A stretch of 64,000 nt of DNA. It comes from Balneolaceae bacterium (GTDB lineage Bacteria > Bacteroidota > Rhodothermia > Balneolales > Balneolaceae). Made by a program: the position numbers and the translations under genes. The stretch spans positions 62,001 to 126,000 of the forward strand of contig VEMX01000012.1 of assembly GCA_009711805.1 (NCBI GenBank), given 5' to 3'. This document shows, piece after piece, positions 42,869-51,813 of the stretch. The notes under the pieces are model-generated. The model worked only from the letters and a program-made list of their open reading frames with translations, was not told the origin of the DNA and ran no database searches. Positions within the stretch are counted from its first letter, which is position 1; each line of letters starts with the position of its first letter.

Positions 42869-43175
42869 TTAAACCCTGGTTCATAATGCGGGGCTTTAAA
42901 CCAGAGTTTTACAGGATGTTTTGGATGCACCGGATTTACCCTTGTTGCCAATTCGACCTCTGAAATACGGGAGGTCAAGCCAAAAGCACATCTCCGTTGA
43001 GAGGGATTTGTCTGACTTCTACAAGGATGACAAGTGCGAAACGAAGGCACATCTAAGACAGCCGGGAAAGCAATCCATTCCTTGAGTGTCTATAACAGCT
43101 TTTTTACAAACTTTCTGCAGCCTTACTTTGTGTTTTTACTTTTGATTACCTACTCTTTTGGAAAATTCAAATCCA
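42869..43175. other. Intergenic region right of MITE copy B
   Basis: About 300 bp upstream of the tricorn-like protease gene. No gene seen; presumed promoter region of the protease. Confidence 0.4.
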
Positions 43176-46100
43176 ATGGGTGCTGTCGTGTACAAGAAAA
43201 TCTATCAACCTTTCCTCCTTTTAACAATTGCATTAATAACCCTTCAAAACGGCTTTTCACAAAATACGGTCCGTTTTACCTCAAGCCCGGCCATCTCACC
43301 GGATGCTTCGGTTATTGTGTTTTCTTATGAAAGCGATCTTTGGAAAATACCGGCTGGGGGTGGTACCGCTGTGCGTCTTACCGGGATGGACGGAGAAGAA
43401 ACCGCTGCAAGTATTTCTCCCGATGGCAAGTGGCTGGCCTTCAGTTCTAACCAGTATGGCAATAATGACATTTACCTTATGGCCCTGGGTGGCGGCCCCA
43501 TAAAACAATTAACTTACCACCAGGCCGGAGACCAGGTTGAATCGTGGAGCTGGGACTCTCAACGTATATATTTCCGCTCCGGACGCTACAATCGTGTAAG
43601 TACTTACGAAGTAAATATTGAAGGAGGCACTCCCAAACGACTCTTTGGCCACTACCACAATAATGTACACAACCTGATTGAAGCACCATCATCTGACACC
43701 TACTTTTTTAATGAATCCTGGGAAAGCTTCATCTTTCCCCAGAGAAAAAAATACCGCGGGCCTTTCAATCCCGACATTAAATCCTATGATACCAATTCCG
43801 GCACTTTCACTGTTCACACAGAATGGGACGGCAAAGATATGTGGCCTACCATCGACCGGGATGGAAACCTGTATCTTGTATCTGATGAACACAATGGTGA
43901 ATACAATCTCTATTCGCTGGAAAATGGAGCCAAAAACAGACTTACCTCCTTCGAAACATCGGTTATAGAGCCACAAGTGAGCGCAAACGGACAAACCATA
44001 GTCTTCGAAAAAGAATACCAGGTTTATACCTATGATGTGGCCTCCGGAAACAGTAAAAGACTGCCCATTTCCATTTACCAAAACAACACCCTGACCAAGG
44101 AACAAAGTTTTGGCGTAAAAGATAATATTACCGCTTTTGATGTATCCCCGGACAAGAAAAAACTGGCCTTCATCTCCCGGGGAGAACTTTTTGTTTCTGA
44201 TATTGACGGGAAATTTATCCGCCATATTAAAACCGATCCCATGGGGCGGGCGCTGGAAGTGAAGTGGCTGAAAGATAATCGGAATCTCATTTTCAATCAG
44301 ACCGTGGGTGGCTATCAAAACTTTTTCTCTGTTGCTGCGGATGGTTCCACAGAAGCAGAACAACTTACCAATGACCAAGGTAACAACCGGGCCCTGGAAC
44401 TCAACTCCGACCGTAGCAAAGGCATCTATCTCAGTGGAAGTAACCAGCTCCGAATGATCGACCTGGAATCATTTGAGACTGAAACCATTGTAGAAGATGA
44501 ATTCTGGGGATTCCAAAACCAGCAGCCCCGCTTCTCTCCCAATGATGAATATGTTCTCTATACAGCCCGCCGGGATTTTGAACGCGATATCTTCACCTAC
44601 CATATTGAATCCAAAGAGATATTAAATCTCACTGGTACAGGGGTTTCTGAAAACGCCCCCTTCTGGTCGCCCGATGGTAGATACATCTACTTTTCGGGAA
44701 ATCGCACGGCGCCTTCGTACCCGCGAGGCGGCGGAGAAGCTGATCTCTTTAGAATGGCCCTTGACAGCTATGAAGCTCCCTACAAATCGAGCAAGTTTGA
44801 TGACTTATTTAAGGAAGAAGACAAAGAAGAAGAAAAAGAAAGTGATAAAGAATCTGAGGAGGAATCAGAAGAACAAATTGAAATCACCATTAACTCCGAA
44901 GGTCTTATGCGACGCCTTGAGCGCATAGGCGAAGGGTTTGGCTCTCAGTTCTCCCCTTATGTAGTTCGGGATGGGGATAAAACCCATGTATTCTATTTAA
45001 GCAATCACGATGAAGGCAATACCGGTTTATACATTACTACTTTGCAGCCATATGAAAATCCAAAAACAAAAAAAATAGATGGAGTAAACTATGTAGCCAA
45101 CATCACCGAAGTAGATGGCAGTGTATACGGGCTTTCCGGCGGAACCATTTATAAACTGGATATCGGATCAGCCAAAGCCACCAAAATTGAAACAGAATTT
45201 AATTTCAAACGCAATTTGCGGGCTGAATTCAACCAAATGTTTGATGAGCTGTGGGCTAATATGGAAGAAAATTTTTATCACGAACATTTTCACGGGATCA
45301 ACTGGCCACAGGTTCGCGATCAGTACCGGGATTACCTTCCCTATGTGAACAACCGCAACGACTTCAGCCGGATGATGAATGATATGCTGGGCGAACTCAA
45401 CTCCTCTCACCTGGGCTTTAGTACGTTTGGAGAGGAAGAAGAGGAATACCATTCCACAGTTTCAATGTCGTCCGGCTTGATATTCGAAAATGATGCCCCT
45501 TATACCGTTGCTTCCGTTATAAAAAGAGGAGCTTCTGATGTAGCAGGCAAAGACATTCAGCCTGGAGATGTACTGGTTGCCGTAGATGGAAATGAGATAA
45601 CAACCGGAGCCAATCGCGAATCGTATTTCACCCGGCCGGCCATGCAGGAAGAACTGAGCCTTACTTTCCGCCGGGGCAATGACACTTTCACTGCCAAAAT
45701 ACATCCTGAATCCTATTCCTCTGCCCGAGGGAATTTATACGACGAATGGGTAAACCAAAAGCAGCAGATTGTAGACCAGCAAACAGACCGGAAAGTTGCC
45801 TATGTACATATGAAAAATATGGGCGGCGGCGAACTGGAAAACTTCCTCATTGAAATGACTTCAGAAGCTTATAAACGGGATGCCCTTATCCTTGACCTTC
45901 GGTATAACACAGGCGGTAATGTGCATGATGCTGTACTTCAGTTTCTTTCTCAACAGCCCTACCTGAAATGGAAATATCGTGACGGTGCCTATGCAGCCCA
46001 GCCTAATTTTGCTCCGGCAGCCAAACCCATTGTTCTGCTAATCAACGAACAATCGTTAAGTGACGCCGAAGTTACAGCAGCCGGCTTTAAAGAACTTGGA

Positions 46101-46346
46101 CTTGGAACCATAGTGGGAACTGAAACCTACCGCTGGATTATCTTCACTTCCGGCAAAGGCCTGGTAGACGGCTCCTTCTATCGACTGCCATCCTGGGGAG
46201 TGTATACCCTGGGTGATGAGAAGAACCTGGAACGCACCGGGGTACAACCCGATGTGGAAGTGGATAACACCTTCAAAGACCGACTCACCGGCAGCGACCC
46301 GCAGCTGATGAAAGCTATTGAACTGGTGATGGAGGAGTTAAAATAG
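43176..46346 (+). CDS. Tricorn-like S41 protease, exported
   Basis: About 1056 residues from the ATG at 43176, chosen because it gives a signal peptide (MGAVVYKKIYQPFLLLTIAL, cleavage near GFSQ); the frame also allows TTG at 43158. Order: beta-propeller with TolB/tricorn blades (FTSSPAISPDASVIVFS, ASISPDGKWLAFSSN), a Glu/Lys-rich acidic insert near 550-580, a second domain, a PDZ-like segment (IQPGDVLVAVDGNEI), then the S41 catalytic part. SSHLGF holds the tricorn-type His and INEQSLSDAE the nucleophilic Ser, followed by GLGTIVGTETY. Predicted periplasmic peptidase. Confidence 0.9.
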   Translation: MGAVVYKKIYQPFLLLTIALITLQNGFSQNTVRFTSSPAISPDASVIVFSYESDLWKIPAGGGTAVRLTGMDGEETAASISPDGKWLAFSSNQYGNNDIYLMALGGGPIKQLTYHQAGDQVESWSWDSQRIYFRSGRYNRVSTYEVNIEGGTPKRLFGHYHNNVHNLIEAPSSDTYFFNESWESFIFPQRKKYRGPFNPDIKSYDTNSGTFTVHTEWDGKDMWPTIDRDGNLYLVSDEHNGEYNLYSLENGAKNRLTSFETSVIEPQVSANGQTIVFEKEYQVYTYDVASGNSKRLPISIYQNNTLTKEQSFGVKDNITAFDVSPDKKKLAFISRGELFVSDIDGKFIRHIKTDPMGRALEVKWLKDNRNLIFNQTVGGYQNFFSVAADGSTEAEQLTNDQGNNRALELNSDRSKGIYLSGSNQLRMIDLESFETETIVEDEFWGFQNQQPRFSPNDEYVLYTARRDFERDIFTYHIESKEILNLTGTGVSENAPFWSPDGRYIYFSGNRTAPSYPRGGGEADLFRMALDSYEAPYKSSKFDDLFKEEDKEEEKESDKESEEESEEQIEITINSEGLMRRLERIGEGFGSQFSPYVVRDGDKTHVFYLSNHDEGNTGLYITTLQPYENPKTKKIDGVNYVANITEVDGSVYGLSGGTIYKLDIGSAKATKIETEFNFKRNLRAEFNQMFDELWANMEENFYHEHFHGINWPQVRDQYRDYLPYVNNRNDFSRMMNDMLGELNSSHLGFSTFGEEEEEYHSTVSMSSGLIFENDAPYTVASVIKRGASDVAGKDIQPGDVLVAVDGNEITTGANRESYFTRPAMQEELSLTFRRGNDTFTAKIHPESYSSARGNLYDEWVNQKQQIVDQQTDRKVAYVHMKNMGGGELENFLIEMTSEAYKRDALILDLRYNTGGNVHDAVLQFLSQQPYLKWKYRDGAYAAQPNFAPAAKPIVLLINEQSLSDAEVTAAGFKELGLGTIVGTETYRWIIFTSGKGLVDGSFYRLPSWGVYTLGDEKNLERTGVQPDVEVDNTFKDRLTGSDPQLMKAIELVMEELK

Positions 46347-46718
46347 TCAGTTTCGGTAACTACCAGCTGATCCAGGCCCATAACGACCGGTTGAACAGTG
46401 ACAAGGGACGGTGGAAAATACATTCTATTCCGGACTACACTACGGTGGTGGATGAAGCTTGGTCAACCATTCCTTTGTTGCCTCCCTTTAACTCCTTTCA
46501 AGTCAATAATAAAGTATCGTGGACCTGACAGGTTTCTGTAGGCAAAATTTGTATGAAATACATCTTACTTTTTAAAACCTGTCAGGTCTTTTTTGGGGTC
46601 GATCTACCAGGTCTGCTCCCGCTTATGCGGTGGTCCATGGTCAATCGTCTCTCCTCCCTCGTCCACCGTCCCTTGCCAATCATCTAAATAGATTTTTTTC
46701 ATTTCCATCAAAAATTAA
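46347..46718. other. Intergenic region with nested inverted repeats
   Basis: Holds a perfect 14-bp inverted repeat GACCTGACAGGTTT (46522-46535) and AAACCTGTCAGGTC (46575-46588) followed by T6, which may serve as terminator of the protease gene or be a palindromic repeat element. An outer pair CAAGGGACGGTGG (46402-46414) and CCACCGTCCCTTG (46663-46675) encloses it. No coding frame is credible. Confidence 0.7.
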
Positions 46719-46750
46719 TTTGCTCCTTCCAAAAACTACTCTTAGCTTTA
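46719..46750 (+). promoter_or_regulatory. Bacteroidota-type promoter of the met leader
   Basis: TTTG (46719-46722), 20-bp spacer, TAGCTTTA (46743-46750; consensus TAnnTTTG). The spacing equals that of the promoter at 2776-2807. The expected start point is within a few bases of the leader-peptide ATG at 46756. Confidence 0.55.
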
Positions 46751-46755
46751 GGGTA

Positions 46756-46836
46756 ATGAAATTTACAAGCCAAAATATCAATTCTCTCACAGCAATTTGC
46801 TGTATGTGTATGTGCATGGACAAAGCGCATACCTGA
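46756..46836 (+). CDS. Cys/Met-rich leader peptide of the met operon
   Basis: A 26-residue frame beginning MKFTSQNINS and ending ICCMCMCMDKAHT, then TGA. Seven consecutive codons (46798-46818) are Cys or Met: TGC TGT ATG TGT ATG TGC ATG. It is followed by a canonical terminator hairpin at 46865-46899 and then the SAM riboswitch of a methionine operon. Such codon runs are the hallmark of ribosome-mediated attenuation; here Cys/Met shortage would stall the ribosome. The TGA overlaps GAGGGC (46835-46840), which can pair with the terminator 5' arm. No homolog search was possible. Confidence 0.7.
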   Translation: MKFTSQNINSLTAICCMCMCMDKAHT

Positions 46837-46864
46837 GGGCAGATATAACTAAAGAAATTTACGG

Positions 46865-46899
46865 AGCCCTTTTGGATGCAATATCAAAAGGGCTTTTTT
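46865..46899 (+). terminator. Attenuator terminator of the met leader
   Basis: Stem AGCCCTTTT (46865-46873) and AAAAGGGCT (46886-46894) with T6 after it. The 5' arm GCCCTT (46866-46871) can instead pair with GAGGGC (46835-46840), overlapping the leader-peptide stop codon, giving a candidate antiterminator. Confidence 0.85.
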
Positions 46900-46943
46900 A
46901 TTGGGTGTAAATTCCAGCGTTCTTTTTAAATACATATTGCATT

Positions 46944-47062
46944 CTCATTACGAAAGGTGGAGGGATCAGGTCCTTTGAAGCCTTGGCAACCGTCCGGTTT
47001 AGCAGCCGGAGAAGGTGCTACATCCTGCTCAATGCGCGAAAGCCGGCATTGGGAAAGATGAG
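46944..47062 (+). promoter_or_regulatory. SAM-I (S-box) riboswitch aptamer
   Basis: P1 is CTCAT (46944-46948) with ATGAG (47058-47062). The conserved S-box core is present: GGTGGAGGGATCAGG, CCTTTGAAGCC, TTGGCAACC, AAGGTGCTACATCCTGC and GGAAAGATGAG. It binds S-adenosylmethionine and here precedes the CoA-binding/metY/metX/hom operon. An expression platform with a terminator follows (47088-47127). Confidence 0.95.
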
Positions 47063-47087
47063 TTCGATAAGATTTTGTTAACAGCAG

Positions 47088-47127
47088 AGCTTCTTTCGGA
47101 TTCATCACCGAAAGAAGCTTTTTTTGT
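47088..47127 (+). terminator. Expression-platform terminator of the SAM riboswitch
   Basis: Stem AGCTTCTTTCGG (47088-47099) and CCGAAAGAAGCT (47108-47119) followed by T-rich sequence, 15 bases before the first gene. High SAM should favour this hairpin and stop transcription. Confidence 0.92.
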
Positions 47128-47142
47128 TTAACGAAATCAATC

Positions 47143-47637
47143 ATGAAAGGAACATTTAACAACTGGTACACAACTAAGACACAGGCTACCGAAGAGCTGG
47201 CCAGGGAGAGCCGGGAGATTGAAACACTCCTTGAAAATATCCGGGCGATTGCCATTGTAGGTATCTCACGCAATCCACACCGCGACAGCCAGTATGTAGG
47301 TAAGTACCTGAAATCTGCCGGTTATAAAGTGGTACCCGTGAACCCTGCGGCCGATACCATCCTGGGAGAAAAAAGCTATCCCAACCTTCAAAGTATTCCT
47401 TTCTCCATTGATGTTGTTGATATTTTCCGCCGTCCTAAAGATATCCCTGCGGTCGTTGACGAAGCTCTTTCTATAAATCCCAAAGCCATTTGGCTGCAGC
47501 TGGGCACCGGAAGCCACCCCAAATTGCAAAAGAAAGTGGAATCAGCCGGCAGCCGGCTGATCCAGAAACGCTGCATTAAAGTAGACCATCAGTTTTTAAT
47601 ACGACCAAAAAATCAACCATCTAAACTCGCTCAATAA
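47143..47637 (+). CDS. CoA-binding (YccU-like) protein in the met operon
   Basis: 164 residues. After a 35-residue helical N-terminus comes the Rossmann-type CoA_binding fold: IAIVGISRNPHRDSQYVGKYL, GYKVVPVNPAADTILGEKSYPNL, DVVDIFRRP, WLQLGTG. Family members bind CoA; their role is poorly known. It is the first gene behind the SAM riboswitch and directly precedes metY (6 nt gap), so a role linked to sulfur or acyl-CoA supply for methionine synthesis is likely but unproven. Confidence 0.88.
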   Translation: MKGTFNNWYTTKTQATEELARESREIETLLENIRAIAIVGISRNPHRDSQYVGKYLKSAGYKVVPVNPAADTILGEKSYPNLQSIPFSIDVVDIFRRPKDIPAVVDEALSINPKAIWLQLGTGSHPKLQKKVESAGSRLIQKRCIKVDHQFLIRPKNQPSKLAQ

Positions 47638-48972
<1,335 letters not shown>

Positions 48973-49082: not shown

Positions 49083-49619
49083 ATGAGTACTCTTACAACT
49101 CCCAAAAATAAAACTGACTTAAAACTGCAGGATTCTCTTGCCGGTGTTATCAATGCGGTAAAAGACAATCCTGACAATGCAGAAGCAGCCTTTTCTGTGA
49201 CCTCCCGCCTTGAAAAAGGATTCCATTCAACCATCAATACACGTGATTTTGAATTTATTTCGGATGAACCTGAGAGTCTGGGTGGAAAAAACGAAGGCCC
49301 CAATCCCATCGAATATGTACTGGGAGCGCTTGCCGCTTGCCAGGAAATTGTCATAAAGGCTCACGCCACACAGCTTGGTATAGAAGTTAAATCCGTGAAA
49401 GTGGATGCAACCGGTGATCTGGATCTGCATGGTTTCTTCAACTTGTCGAAAGCCCGTCCCGGATTTACTAATGTGAGATACCAAACTGTGATTGAAACCG
49501 AAGAAACCGACCCGGTTAAACTTCAAAAACTGAAAGACATCTCTCTTAAAAACTGCCCTGTTCTGGATGTAATCCAAAACCCGGTGCCCGTTACAGGAGA
49601 GGTTACGTACATCAATTAA
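49083..49619 (+). CDS. OsmC-family protein in the met operon
   Basis: 178 residues, longer than the OsmC at 6352. Family marks are NPIEYVLGALAACQEIVIKAHA with the first Cys, and KNCPVLDVIQNPVPVTGE with the second. This version resembles the YhfA-like/sulfur-associated branch rather than stress OsmC. Lying between metY and metX in a SAM-controlled operon, it may handle sulfane or persulfide chemistry, but this is inference. Followed by a hairpin with a short T run before metX. Confidence 0.87.
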   Translation: MSTLTTPKNKTDLKLQDSLAGVINAVKDNPDNAEAAFSVTSRLEKGFHSTINTRDFEFISDEPESLGGKNEGPNPIEYVLGALAACQEIVIKAHATQLGIEVKSVKVDATGDLDLHGFFNLSKARPGFTNVRYQTVIETEETDPVKLQKLKDISLKNCPVLDVIQNPVPVTGEVTYIN

Positions 49620-49663: not shown

Positions 49664-50719
49664 ATGAACAAAGGAATTAACATAACAACCATTGACCGCC
49701 CCTGGACCACCGAGTCTGGCGCTACCTTTTCCTCGGTGGATATTGCCTGGAAAAGTTGGGGTACCCTCAACAAACAGCGGGATAATGTAATTTTGATCTG
49801 CCATGCCCTTACCGGACATGCCGCTGCCGATGAATGGTTCAGCGGATTGTTTGCAAAAAATGGCATATTGGATCCCGAAACCCAATTCATAATCTGCATC
49901 AATGCTCCCGGAAGTTGTTATGGATCAACAGGTCCCAAATCAATAAACCCTGAAACAGGCAAGCCTTATAAAGGCGATTTCCCTGAAATTACCATCCGGG
50001 ATATTGTTCACTTCCAACAGCTGCTGCTCGATCATCTGGATATTGAGTCTATTGAACTGGTAATTGGCGGTTCCATGGGAGGCATGAATGCCCTTGAGTT
50101 TACGCTGATAGATGAAAGAGTACAATCGGCCGCATTATTGGCTATGGGTAAATCTCACTCGCCATGGGCTATAGGAATCAGCCAGGCACAACGCCGTGCC
50201 ATTTATGCTGATCCAAACTGGAAGAATGGTTTTTATGATGATGAACACCCTCCGGAAGCCGGGCTTGCTGCGGCCCGCGAAATGGCGATGATTACCTATC
50301 GAACCCCTCAGAATTACGACCAAAAGTTTGGCCGTGACGTACATCCTGAAAAAGACATTTTCCAGGTAGAGTCTTACCTCGATTATCAGGGAGAAAAACT
50401 GGTAAAGCGGTTTGATGCAAATGCCTATGTAGTCCTTTCGAAAGCAATGGATTACCATGATGTATCCAGGGCACGAGGTTCTTTTGAAGAAGTACTTGGC
50501 TCTGTTCAGCAAGCTGTTCTAATCGTTGGCATTGAAAGTGACCTGCTCTACCCCATTAACGAACAGATAGAACTGGCCGAATTGATTCCAAACAGCACCT
50601 TTGCTCCTATTAAATCTCCCTATGGCCATGATGCATTCCTGATTGAATTCGAACAGATCAACGGCCACCTCAAACAATTTTATAAAACACATACCCAAAA
50701 AATTTCAACACAACTATGA
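49664..50719 (+). CDS. metX: Homoserine O-acetyltransferase
   Basis: Acyl transfer from acetyl-CoA to homoserine, giving the metY substrate. 351 residues of alpha/beta-hydrolase fold with nucleophile Ser137 in GGSMGGM, LTGHAAADEW, GSCYGSTGPKSINPETGKPY, Asp in GIESDLLYP and His in PYGHDAFL. Its last bases overlap the hom start (ATGA at 50716-50719). Confidence 0.96.
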   Translation: MNKGINITTIDRPWTTESGATFSSVDIAWKSWGTLNKQRDNVILICHALTGHAAADEWFSGLFAKNGILDPETQFIICINAPGSCYGSTGPKSINPETGKPYKGDFPEITIRDIVHFQQLLLDHLDIESIELVIGGSMGGMNALEFTLIDERVQSAALLAMGKSHSPWAIGISQAQRRAIYADPNWKNGFYDDEHPPEAGLAAAREMAMITYRTPQNYDQKFGRDVHPEKDIFQVESYLDYQGEKLVKRFDANAYVVLSKAMDYHDVSRARGSFEEVLGSVQQAVLIVGIESDLLYPINEQIELAELIPNSTFAPIKSPYGHDAFLIEFEQINGHLKQFYKTHTQKISTQL

Positions 50720-51813
50720 GCCTTTCACTCAAAAAGATAGATTCCGCTTTAGACTCCAAAATAACCAAAAAGAAAAAAATTCCTGTTTTTATAGCCGGTA
50801 TTGGAGCTGTTGGCGGTACACTGCTCTCGCAGATCCATGAGCTAAATCACCCCAAATATGACCTTGAAATACAGGGAGCATGCAACAGCTCATTTACCCA
50901 ATGGAATCCTGATTTCCATGAATTGTTAAACGACCACCGGATAGATGAAGGGGATCTCACCAATTGGGAAAAAATTCCTGAAAAGATCATCGACAAAAAC
51001 CCCGGCAACCTGATTTTTATTGATGCTACGGGAAGCGAAGTAGTTGCACGCCAATATGAAAATCTCCTCTCGCATGGTGTCCATATTGCCACACCAAGCA
51101 AAAGAGCGAACTCATTTGAACAAAGCTATTTCGAAAAGCTGAGCTTTCTCAATAATACAGACCGTGCATATTACCGCTATGAAACAGCCGTTGGCGCCGG
51201 ACTTCCCGTTATCAGTACCATTAACAACCTGCTTGACTCAGGTGATGAAGTTACAGAAATAGCAGGGGTGGTATCAGGAACCATGACGTATATTTTTACT
51301 CAGCTTCAGAATGGCCTTCCTTTCAGTCAGATTGTGAGAGAGGCTCGCGAAAAAGGATATTCTGAACCTGACCCCCGAGATGACCTGTCCGGAGAAGATG
51401 TAGCCCGTAAATTCCTCATCCTTGCCCGTACCTGTGGCTATACTTTTGAGAGGGATCAACTCCGAGTAGATACCCTGGTTCCCGAAAAACTTATCGAGCT
51501 GTCTACCCAGGATTTCCTGAACAAACTTCCCGAGTACGACGGCCACTGGAAAAACCGGAATACCAAAGCGTTGGTAAACAACAAAAAGCTCAGGTATGTG
51601 GGCCGGTTTACTCCGGAAGGTATCAGTGTTGGTATAGATCAGGTGAACGGCGACTCTCCGTTGGGCGGGCTAAGCGGAACAGATAACCTCATTCAAATTT
51701 ACACCAAACGATATAGCGAATCACCTATTACTATTCAGGGACCGGGTGCAGGTAAAGCTGTTACTGCCGCTGGTCTCTTGGGTGATATCATTAAAATAGC
51801 CGAAAAAATCTAA
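50716..51813 (+). CDS. hom: Homoserine dehydrogenase
   Basis: NAD(P)H reduction of aspartate semialdehyde to homoserine, supplying metX. 365 residues without an ACT or aspartokinase domain, similar to the dehydrogenase part of ThrA. Cofactor loop GIGAVGGTL (about 28-36), ETAVGAGLPVISTINNLL, GVVSGTMTYIF, and the catalytic YSEPDPRDDLSGEDVARK. Having hom under the same SAM control ties homoserine supply to methionine demand. Confidence 0.95.
   Translation: MSLSLKKIDSALDSKITKKKKIPVFIAGIGAVGGTLLSQIHELNHPKYDLEIQGACNSSFTQWNPDFHELLNDHRIDEGDLTNWEKIPEKIIDKNPGNLIFIDATGSEVVARQYENLLSHGVHIATPSKRANSFEQSYFEKLSFLNNTDRAYYRYETAVGAGLPVISTINNLLDSGDEVTEIAGVVSGTMTYIFTQLQNGLPFSQIVREAREKGYSEPDPRDDLSGEDVARKFLILARTCGYTFERDQLRVDTLVPEKLIELSTQDFLNKLPEYDGHWKNRNTKALVNNKKLRYVGRFTPEGISVGIDQVNGDSPLGGLSGTDNLIQIYTKRYSESPITIQGPGAGKAVTAAGLLGDIIKIAEKI

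Follow-up and report, generated by a model that had tools for sequence, protein, structure and literature searches.

The window analysed here, a 64,000-nucleotide stretch of a Balneolaceae bacterium contig, contains an operon for methionine synthesis that includes metY, whose product makes homocysteine. Ahead of the operon, a leader with a short open reading frame rich in Cys and Met codons and an intrinsic terminator is placed in series with a SAM-I riboswitch on one predicted transcript (Table 1). The riboswitch, its own terminator and the element GTTCTTT were absent from an earlier sequence-only reading of the locus, which had described a single attenuator; the attenuator is supported, but it is the first of two serial switches. 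A search at the Rfam gathering scores matched the riboswitch and a tRNA, and no known attenuator family. Further upstream, 3' of the gene of a tricorn-like S41 protease (43158-46346), the window contains an inverted repeat, gacctgacaggtttc / aaaacctgtcaggtct, followed by T (46526-46596), which is likely a terminator or a repeat element.

Table 1. Features of the metY leader region and operon, in window coordinates.
Feature	Position	Strand	Details	Basis
Promoter (predicted)	46719..46750	+	TTTG 46719-46722, TAGCTTTA 46743-46750	sequence
Leader ORF	46756..46836	+	26 codons and stop, MKFTSQNINSLTAICCMCMCMDKAHT; probably leaderless	sequence; coding constraint over 58 relatives
Cys/Met codon run	46798..46818	+	C C M C M C M; proposed sensor	sequence
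Protector stem, 5' arm	46808..46815	+	GTATGTGC, overlapping codon run	fold; weak support in relatives
Protector stem, 3' arm	46825..46832	+	GCGCATAC	fold; weak support in relatives
Antiterminator, 5' strand	46835..46840	+	GAGGGC, over stop codon	covariation in relatives
Leader intrinsic terminator	46863..46896	+	5' arm GCCCTT 46866-46871, pairs with antiterminator strand	terminator scan, fold
boxA-like element	46919..46925	+	GTTCTTT, between leader terminator and riboswitch	conserved before riboswitches of relatives
SAM-I riboswitch aptamer	46942..47064	+	Rfam RF00162	68.4 bits, gathering score 44.4
Riboswitch expression-platform intrinsic terminator	47086..47121	+		terminator scan
CoA_binding_2 protein	47143..47637	+	first gene of operon	domain match
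metY, O-acetylhomoserine sulfhydrylase	47644..48972	+	gene paired with leader in relatives	TIGR01326, 688.6 bits, cut-off 495
OsmC-like protein	49083..49619	+		domain match
metX, homoserine O-acetyltransferase	49664..50719	+		PRK00175, 380 bits, cut-off 331
Homoserine dehydrogenase	50716..51813	+		PF00742, 159 bits

The 26-codon frame with seven consecutive Cys or Met codons that the sequence-only reading had reported is present in the window, and its CCMCMCM run is the sole place in the six frames of the 64 kb with at least seven Cys or Met residues per eight codons. A Bacteroidota-type promoter had been claimed in front of the frame; the elements TTTG and TAGCTTTA fit that pattern and place the predicted transcription start at or beside the ATG. 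The TTG of the promoter is located 36 nt upstream of the ATG, and most relatives share this spacing (-36/-37), which suggests, from the position of the -35 element, that the window transcript probably starts at the ATG and is thus leaderless.

The strong terminator proposed behind the frame was recovered by the terminator scan. The pairing of its 5' arm with GAGGGC, likewise proposed earlier, exists and covaries in relatives, but for the window sequence alone it is within chance level (p about 0.16), and it is convincing solely through the comparison with relatives. The protector stem, which had been noticed as a further stem over the codon run, is part of the predicted fold of the window leader (z = -3.1), but its support in relatives is weaker. 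When the window leader is folded alone, GAGGGC is masked by upstream pairing and the terminator is formed. At -7.4 kcal/mol, the window antiterminator is the weakest among 49, and the window terminator reaches -14.7; the medians across relatives are equal, at -16.1 kcal/mol for both structures. With the ribosome footprint assumed below, stalling at any of the seven Cys/Met codons of the window would leave the antiterminator strand free. Equilibrium folding of the window copy with ribosome footprints predicted the terminator at every ribosome position tested, with no switching. Therefore, either the switch must operate kinetically or its response in this species is weak.

Relatives of the leader were gathered from two sources, genes homologous to the first one of the operon and a survey of the SAM riboswitches of the class. 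They comprise 58 different leaders, all from the order Balneolales, including records of Balneola, Gracilimonas and Fodinibius, in which the codon run, the GAGGGC strand and the terminator are conserved or covary, as the sequence-only reading had expected of a true attenuator. Purifying selection acts on the leader frame (omega 0.33), and pS about equals pN in the other two frames (118 close pairs). After the start codon, 19.3% of the residues are Cys and 12.7% Met, with three to seven Cys and zero to five Met per leader. By these counts, Cys is the constant signal within the Balneolales and Met the variable one, and Met may be sensed alongside Cys. A promoter TTG is located 34-39 nt upstream of the start codon in 40 of the 58 leaders, versus five expected, which suggests that most of them are probably leaderless; one group of Fodinibius leaders instead has a short 5' UTR. 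Weaker leaders, such as one with SCMMLC, are present in a fifth family. The leaders have a common N-terminal pattern of MK and, later, Asn-Ile or His-Ile near codons 7-8. This dipeptide is found in most leaders and has no clear pairing partner.

A canonical intrinsic terminator is present in 49 of the 58 leaders and a variant terminator in five more. In the 49, a helix of 6-9 bp links the stop-codon region to the terminator 5' arm, and 45 of these antiterminators exceed shuffled sequence at p<0.05. The helix has 27 distinct forms, for example CAGAGGG:CCCTCTG, CGGAGGG:CCCTCCG, CCGAAGG:CCTTCGG, AAGGGCT:AGCCCTT and GGGTTCG:CGAACCC, and it is this variety of compensatory forms that persuades us of the predicted pairing. 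Permutation of the terminator arms among leaders lowered the mean pairing score from 18.5 to 15.3 +- 0.4 (0 of 5000 permutations). Antiterminator cells changed on both sides number 27, against 6.9 +- 4.7 in shuffles (0 of 500), statistics that are inflated by kinship and refer to a register picked by complementarity. Every slid register gave far lower counts of such changes. In some rows of the MAFFT alignment the terminator arms are misaligned by one column; gap-free blocks set in the pairing register were therefore used to count covariation, a choice that inflates the share of paired cells, not the compensatory changes.

The ribosome was assumed to occupy positions -15 to +14 relative to the A site. 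Under this assumption, the antiterminator strand is covered in all 49 leaders when the ribosome has reached the stop codon, and is left free by stalling at a median of six of seven Cys/Met codons. In relatives, the protector stem has weak support by permutation (1 of 5000), with a small effect. Better supported there, and weak in the window, is a helix in which the start-codon region pairs with the sequence that follows the antiterminator strand, for example ATGAAACAAATT:AATTTGTTTCAT (0 of 5000). The protector and the terminator can both nest with this helix, but the antiterminator is crossed by it; it would therefore be expected to promote termination and, once the first ribosome has moved on, to mask the start codon.

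The leader model R1, which retained three base pairs only and so behaves essentially as a sequence model, matches 71 of 87 Balneolaceae genomes and 59 of the 66 good ones, with at most one strong match in each. The gene metY is downstream of the leader in every strong match examined and likewise at the survey loci. Second matches above E 0.004, among those read in Balneolaceae, are plain terminators. The second SAM riboswitch in the same genomes, that of metH, has no leader.

The comparison supports the coding constraint, the covarying antiterminator, the geometry and the strict association with metY, all in agreement with the classical attenuation logic of the sequence-only reading, and from these features we infer the transcription start, the translation of the leader, stalling, amino-acid specificity and the direction of the response. 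We consider it highly probable that the leader is a ribosome-mediated transcription attenuator that senses charged tRNA-Cys and tRNA-Met in series before the SAM-I riboswitch. A ribosome would begin at the 5'-terminal AUG. Once the peptide was finished, the ribosome at the stop codon would sit over the antiterminator strand, which would allow the terminator to form. Stalling on the Cys/Met run would leave the strand free to pair with the terminator 5' arm, and RNA polymerase would read on. With no ribosome on the leader, upstream pairing would mask the strand, and termination would occur by default. The polymerase would next reach the SAM riboswitch, where high SAM would cause termination. The controlled operon, which would provide homocysteine from sulfide (metY, metX and homoserine dehydrogenase), would be fully on only if Cys/Met-tRNA and SAM were both short.

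The operon product Met matches codons of the run. No serine acetyltransferase gene cysE above the cut-off is present in the genome of the window, which contains one CBS-like and one CGL-like enzyme gene. Therefore, the cysteine of this species probably derives from homocysteine, if transsulfuration operates, and the Cys codons could be read as feedback by the homocysteine-to-Cys branch. No support was obtained for a link between the leader and loss of cysE, as a cysE-like gene is found in about half of the relatives that carry the leader.

The same leader architecture is found before metY and sulfate-assimilation genes in other classes and families of the phylum, and the reverse-strand and shuffle controls of the phylum scan both gave 0 of 94. 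The region upstream of metY in family f26 contains the riboswitch alone, a leader and the riboswitch, or two tandem Met-rich leader attenuators without a riboswitch. The tandem leaders take the place of the SAM riboswitch at loci L329, L333, L218 and L219. Sulfate genes of the same family (sulfate-binding protein; DUF2061-cysH) are preceded by a Cys/Met leader and then a poly-Cys ORF. The Cys:Met counts are 16:53 in ten metY leaders of f26 and 23:15 in six sulfate leaders (p = 0.0003, from few independent lineages). Poly-Cys ORFs ending in CCC(C) occur in 15 of 94 regions from several further Bacteroidota families, versus none of 94 when the reverse strand was scanned. They are mostly located 160-290 nt upstream of cysH or metY, with CCC or CCCC at the stop codon (L268, L276, L277, L282, L283, L348, L349, L351-L353, L355 and L361). 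A search for intrinsic terminators after the poly-Cys ORFs in these other families found none. We lean slightly towards the view that Cys/Met leaders are a Bacteroidota-wide device, tuned to the gene (Met-rich for metY, Cys-rich for sulfate genes), in which riboswitch alone, leader with riboswitch and tandem leaders are interchangeable modules, with a terminator-less poly-Cys form elsewhere.

The heptamer GTTCTTT resembles boxA (Nus) and stands ahead of the riboswitch. It precedes 27 of the 28 leader-preceded riboswitches counted and is kept in genomes that are without the leader by loss (L134, L140). It is also present in rRNA leaders of the relatives G033 and G043 (L183, L184, L186-L188), and was not seen as such in G069 (L185); this comparison was made in relatives, the SSU rRNA being missing from the assembly of the window. 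Four leaders of family f4 (L020, L022, L033, L150) have kept the Cys/Met run and have no terminator, so that part of the leader function may not need it. These leaders retain a helix in which the start-codon region pairs with the sequence preceding GTTCTTT. The leader could work mainly via Rho-dependent termination or the boxA-like element instead of the intrinsic terminator, as the f4 leaders, the conservation of GTTCTTT, the poly-Cys ORFs of other families and the mycobacterial cys leaders, likewise without an intrinsic terminator (PMC1262725), would suggest. However, a mechanism of this kind is unlikely, given that 49 of the 58 leaders have a canonical intrinsic terminator, and five others a variant one, with a covarying antiterminator.

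Less likely again is an arrest peptide, in which the nascent Cys/Met-rich chain would itself be the sensor: bound in the exit tunnel to a ligand (metal, thiol or sulfur metabolite), it would stall the ribosome. The switch would be unchanged, with a signal other than tRNA charging. Ligand-stalled arrest peptides are exemplified by TnaC and SpeFL, soft metals are bound by Cys/Met motifs, and the N-terminal pattern (MK, then NI/HI about codons 7-8) is unexplained by codon counting. However, leaders vary in the length of the run, in the order of its residues and in its Cys:Met ratio (CCMCMCM, CMMLC, CCC, MMCMMM), and in family f26 its make-up tracks the downstream gene, which is better explained by codon counting than by a binding motif.

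The coding constraint is real, and other SAM riboswitches, such as that of metH, do without a leader. Both would be expected if the frame encoded a small functional Cys-rich protein followed by an ordinary terminator, with metY under the SAM riboswitch alone and a second promoter. A plain terminator, however, needs no stop-codon strand that covaries with its 5' arm, the gap of 40-60 nt between terminator and aptamer has no conserved promoter, and the leader has stayed with metY across five families, so that we regard this explanation as very improbable. A chance ORF with a chance pairing, to which the p value of about 0.16 for the window antiterminator alone might point, has a negligible probability and is ruled out by the arm permutation, the coding constraint, the both-side changes and the phylum-scan controls (0 of 94), the codon run being unique in the window and conserved in 58 leaders.

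The proposed Cys/Met attenuator can be compared with those of the trp, his, ilv and leu operons, which have a short ORF with a run of product codons and mutually exclusive antiterminator and terminator. It is like them in the codon-run ORF, the exclusive hairpins and the strand covered by the ribosome at the stop codon, and differs in the mixed Cys/Met run, the probably leaderless start, the serial SAM-I riboswitch and the Balneolales host. A survey of 2010 listed leader-peptide systems as known only in Proteobacteria and Actinobacteria and added Firmicutes (PMC2965389). The Cys leaders predicted for mycobacterial cys operons have no conserved intrinsic terminator (PMC1262725), whereas the Balneolales leader has one. 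The mycobacterial poly-cysteine leaderless sORF attenuators of Canestrari et al. 2020, as cited in PMC9031893, are similar in the Cys codon run and the position before sulfur genes, and their leaderless ORF would be matched by the probably leaderless one here; according to that citing account, they differ from the Balneolales leader in having no Met run, other genes and no SAM riboswitch. The uORFC-8-2 motif before cysS of Rhodobacterales, a proposed Cys-codon attenuator, shares Cys codons and an intrinsic terminator with the Balneolales leader, but has two Cys codons, a cysteinyl-tRNA synthetase gene, an alphaproteobacterial host and no riboswitch (PMC8632094). Long 5' UTRs of B. thetaiotaomicron contain sORFs that resemble leader peptides, with no sulfur specificity (PMC7366714).

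In the literature outside most subscription journals, we found no Cys/Met attenuator described in Bacteroidota or Balneolota, in agreement with the sequence-only reading, which knew of none in the group, and none described in series with a SAM riboswitch. The second serial element is a member of the SAM-I class (S box, RF00162), to which the Cys/Met leader adds an upstream input. Tandem riboswitches exist, as does the combination of a ppGpp riboswitch with a T box. Salmonella mgtCBR, with its tandem attenuators, is alike in having two serial sensors per transcript (PMC3641672), but here a codon-run attenuator for an amino acid would be joined to a riboswitch for its derivative SAM.

The leaders would extend amino-acid attenuation to the Balneolales and other Bacteroidota, where no sulfur attenuator was found described, and one pathway would be read by two serial sensors, of Cys/Met tRNA charging and then of SAM. 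The metH gene, with the riboswitch alone, is an internal control inside the same genomes, and its arrangement is consistent with a double check on the branch shared by Cys and Met and a single check on the Met-only step. The gene-dependent codon make-up opens the question of specificity to direct testing. One more leader with a terminator, MCCASCMCMDGMCM, is located about 1.2 kb before cysH at locus L233 (G085, class Rhodothermia).
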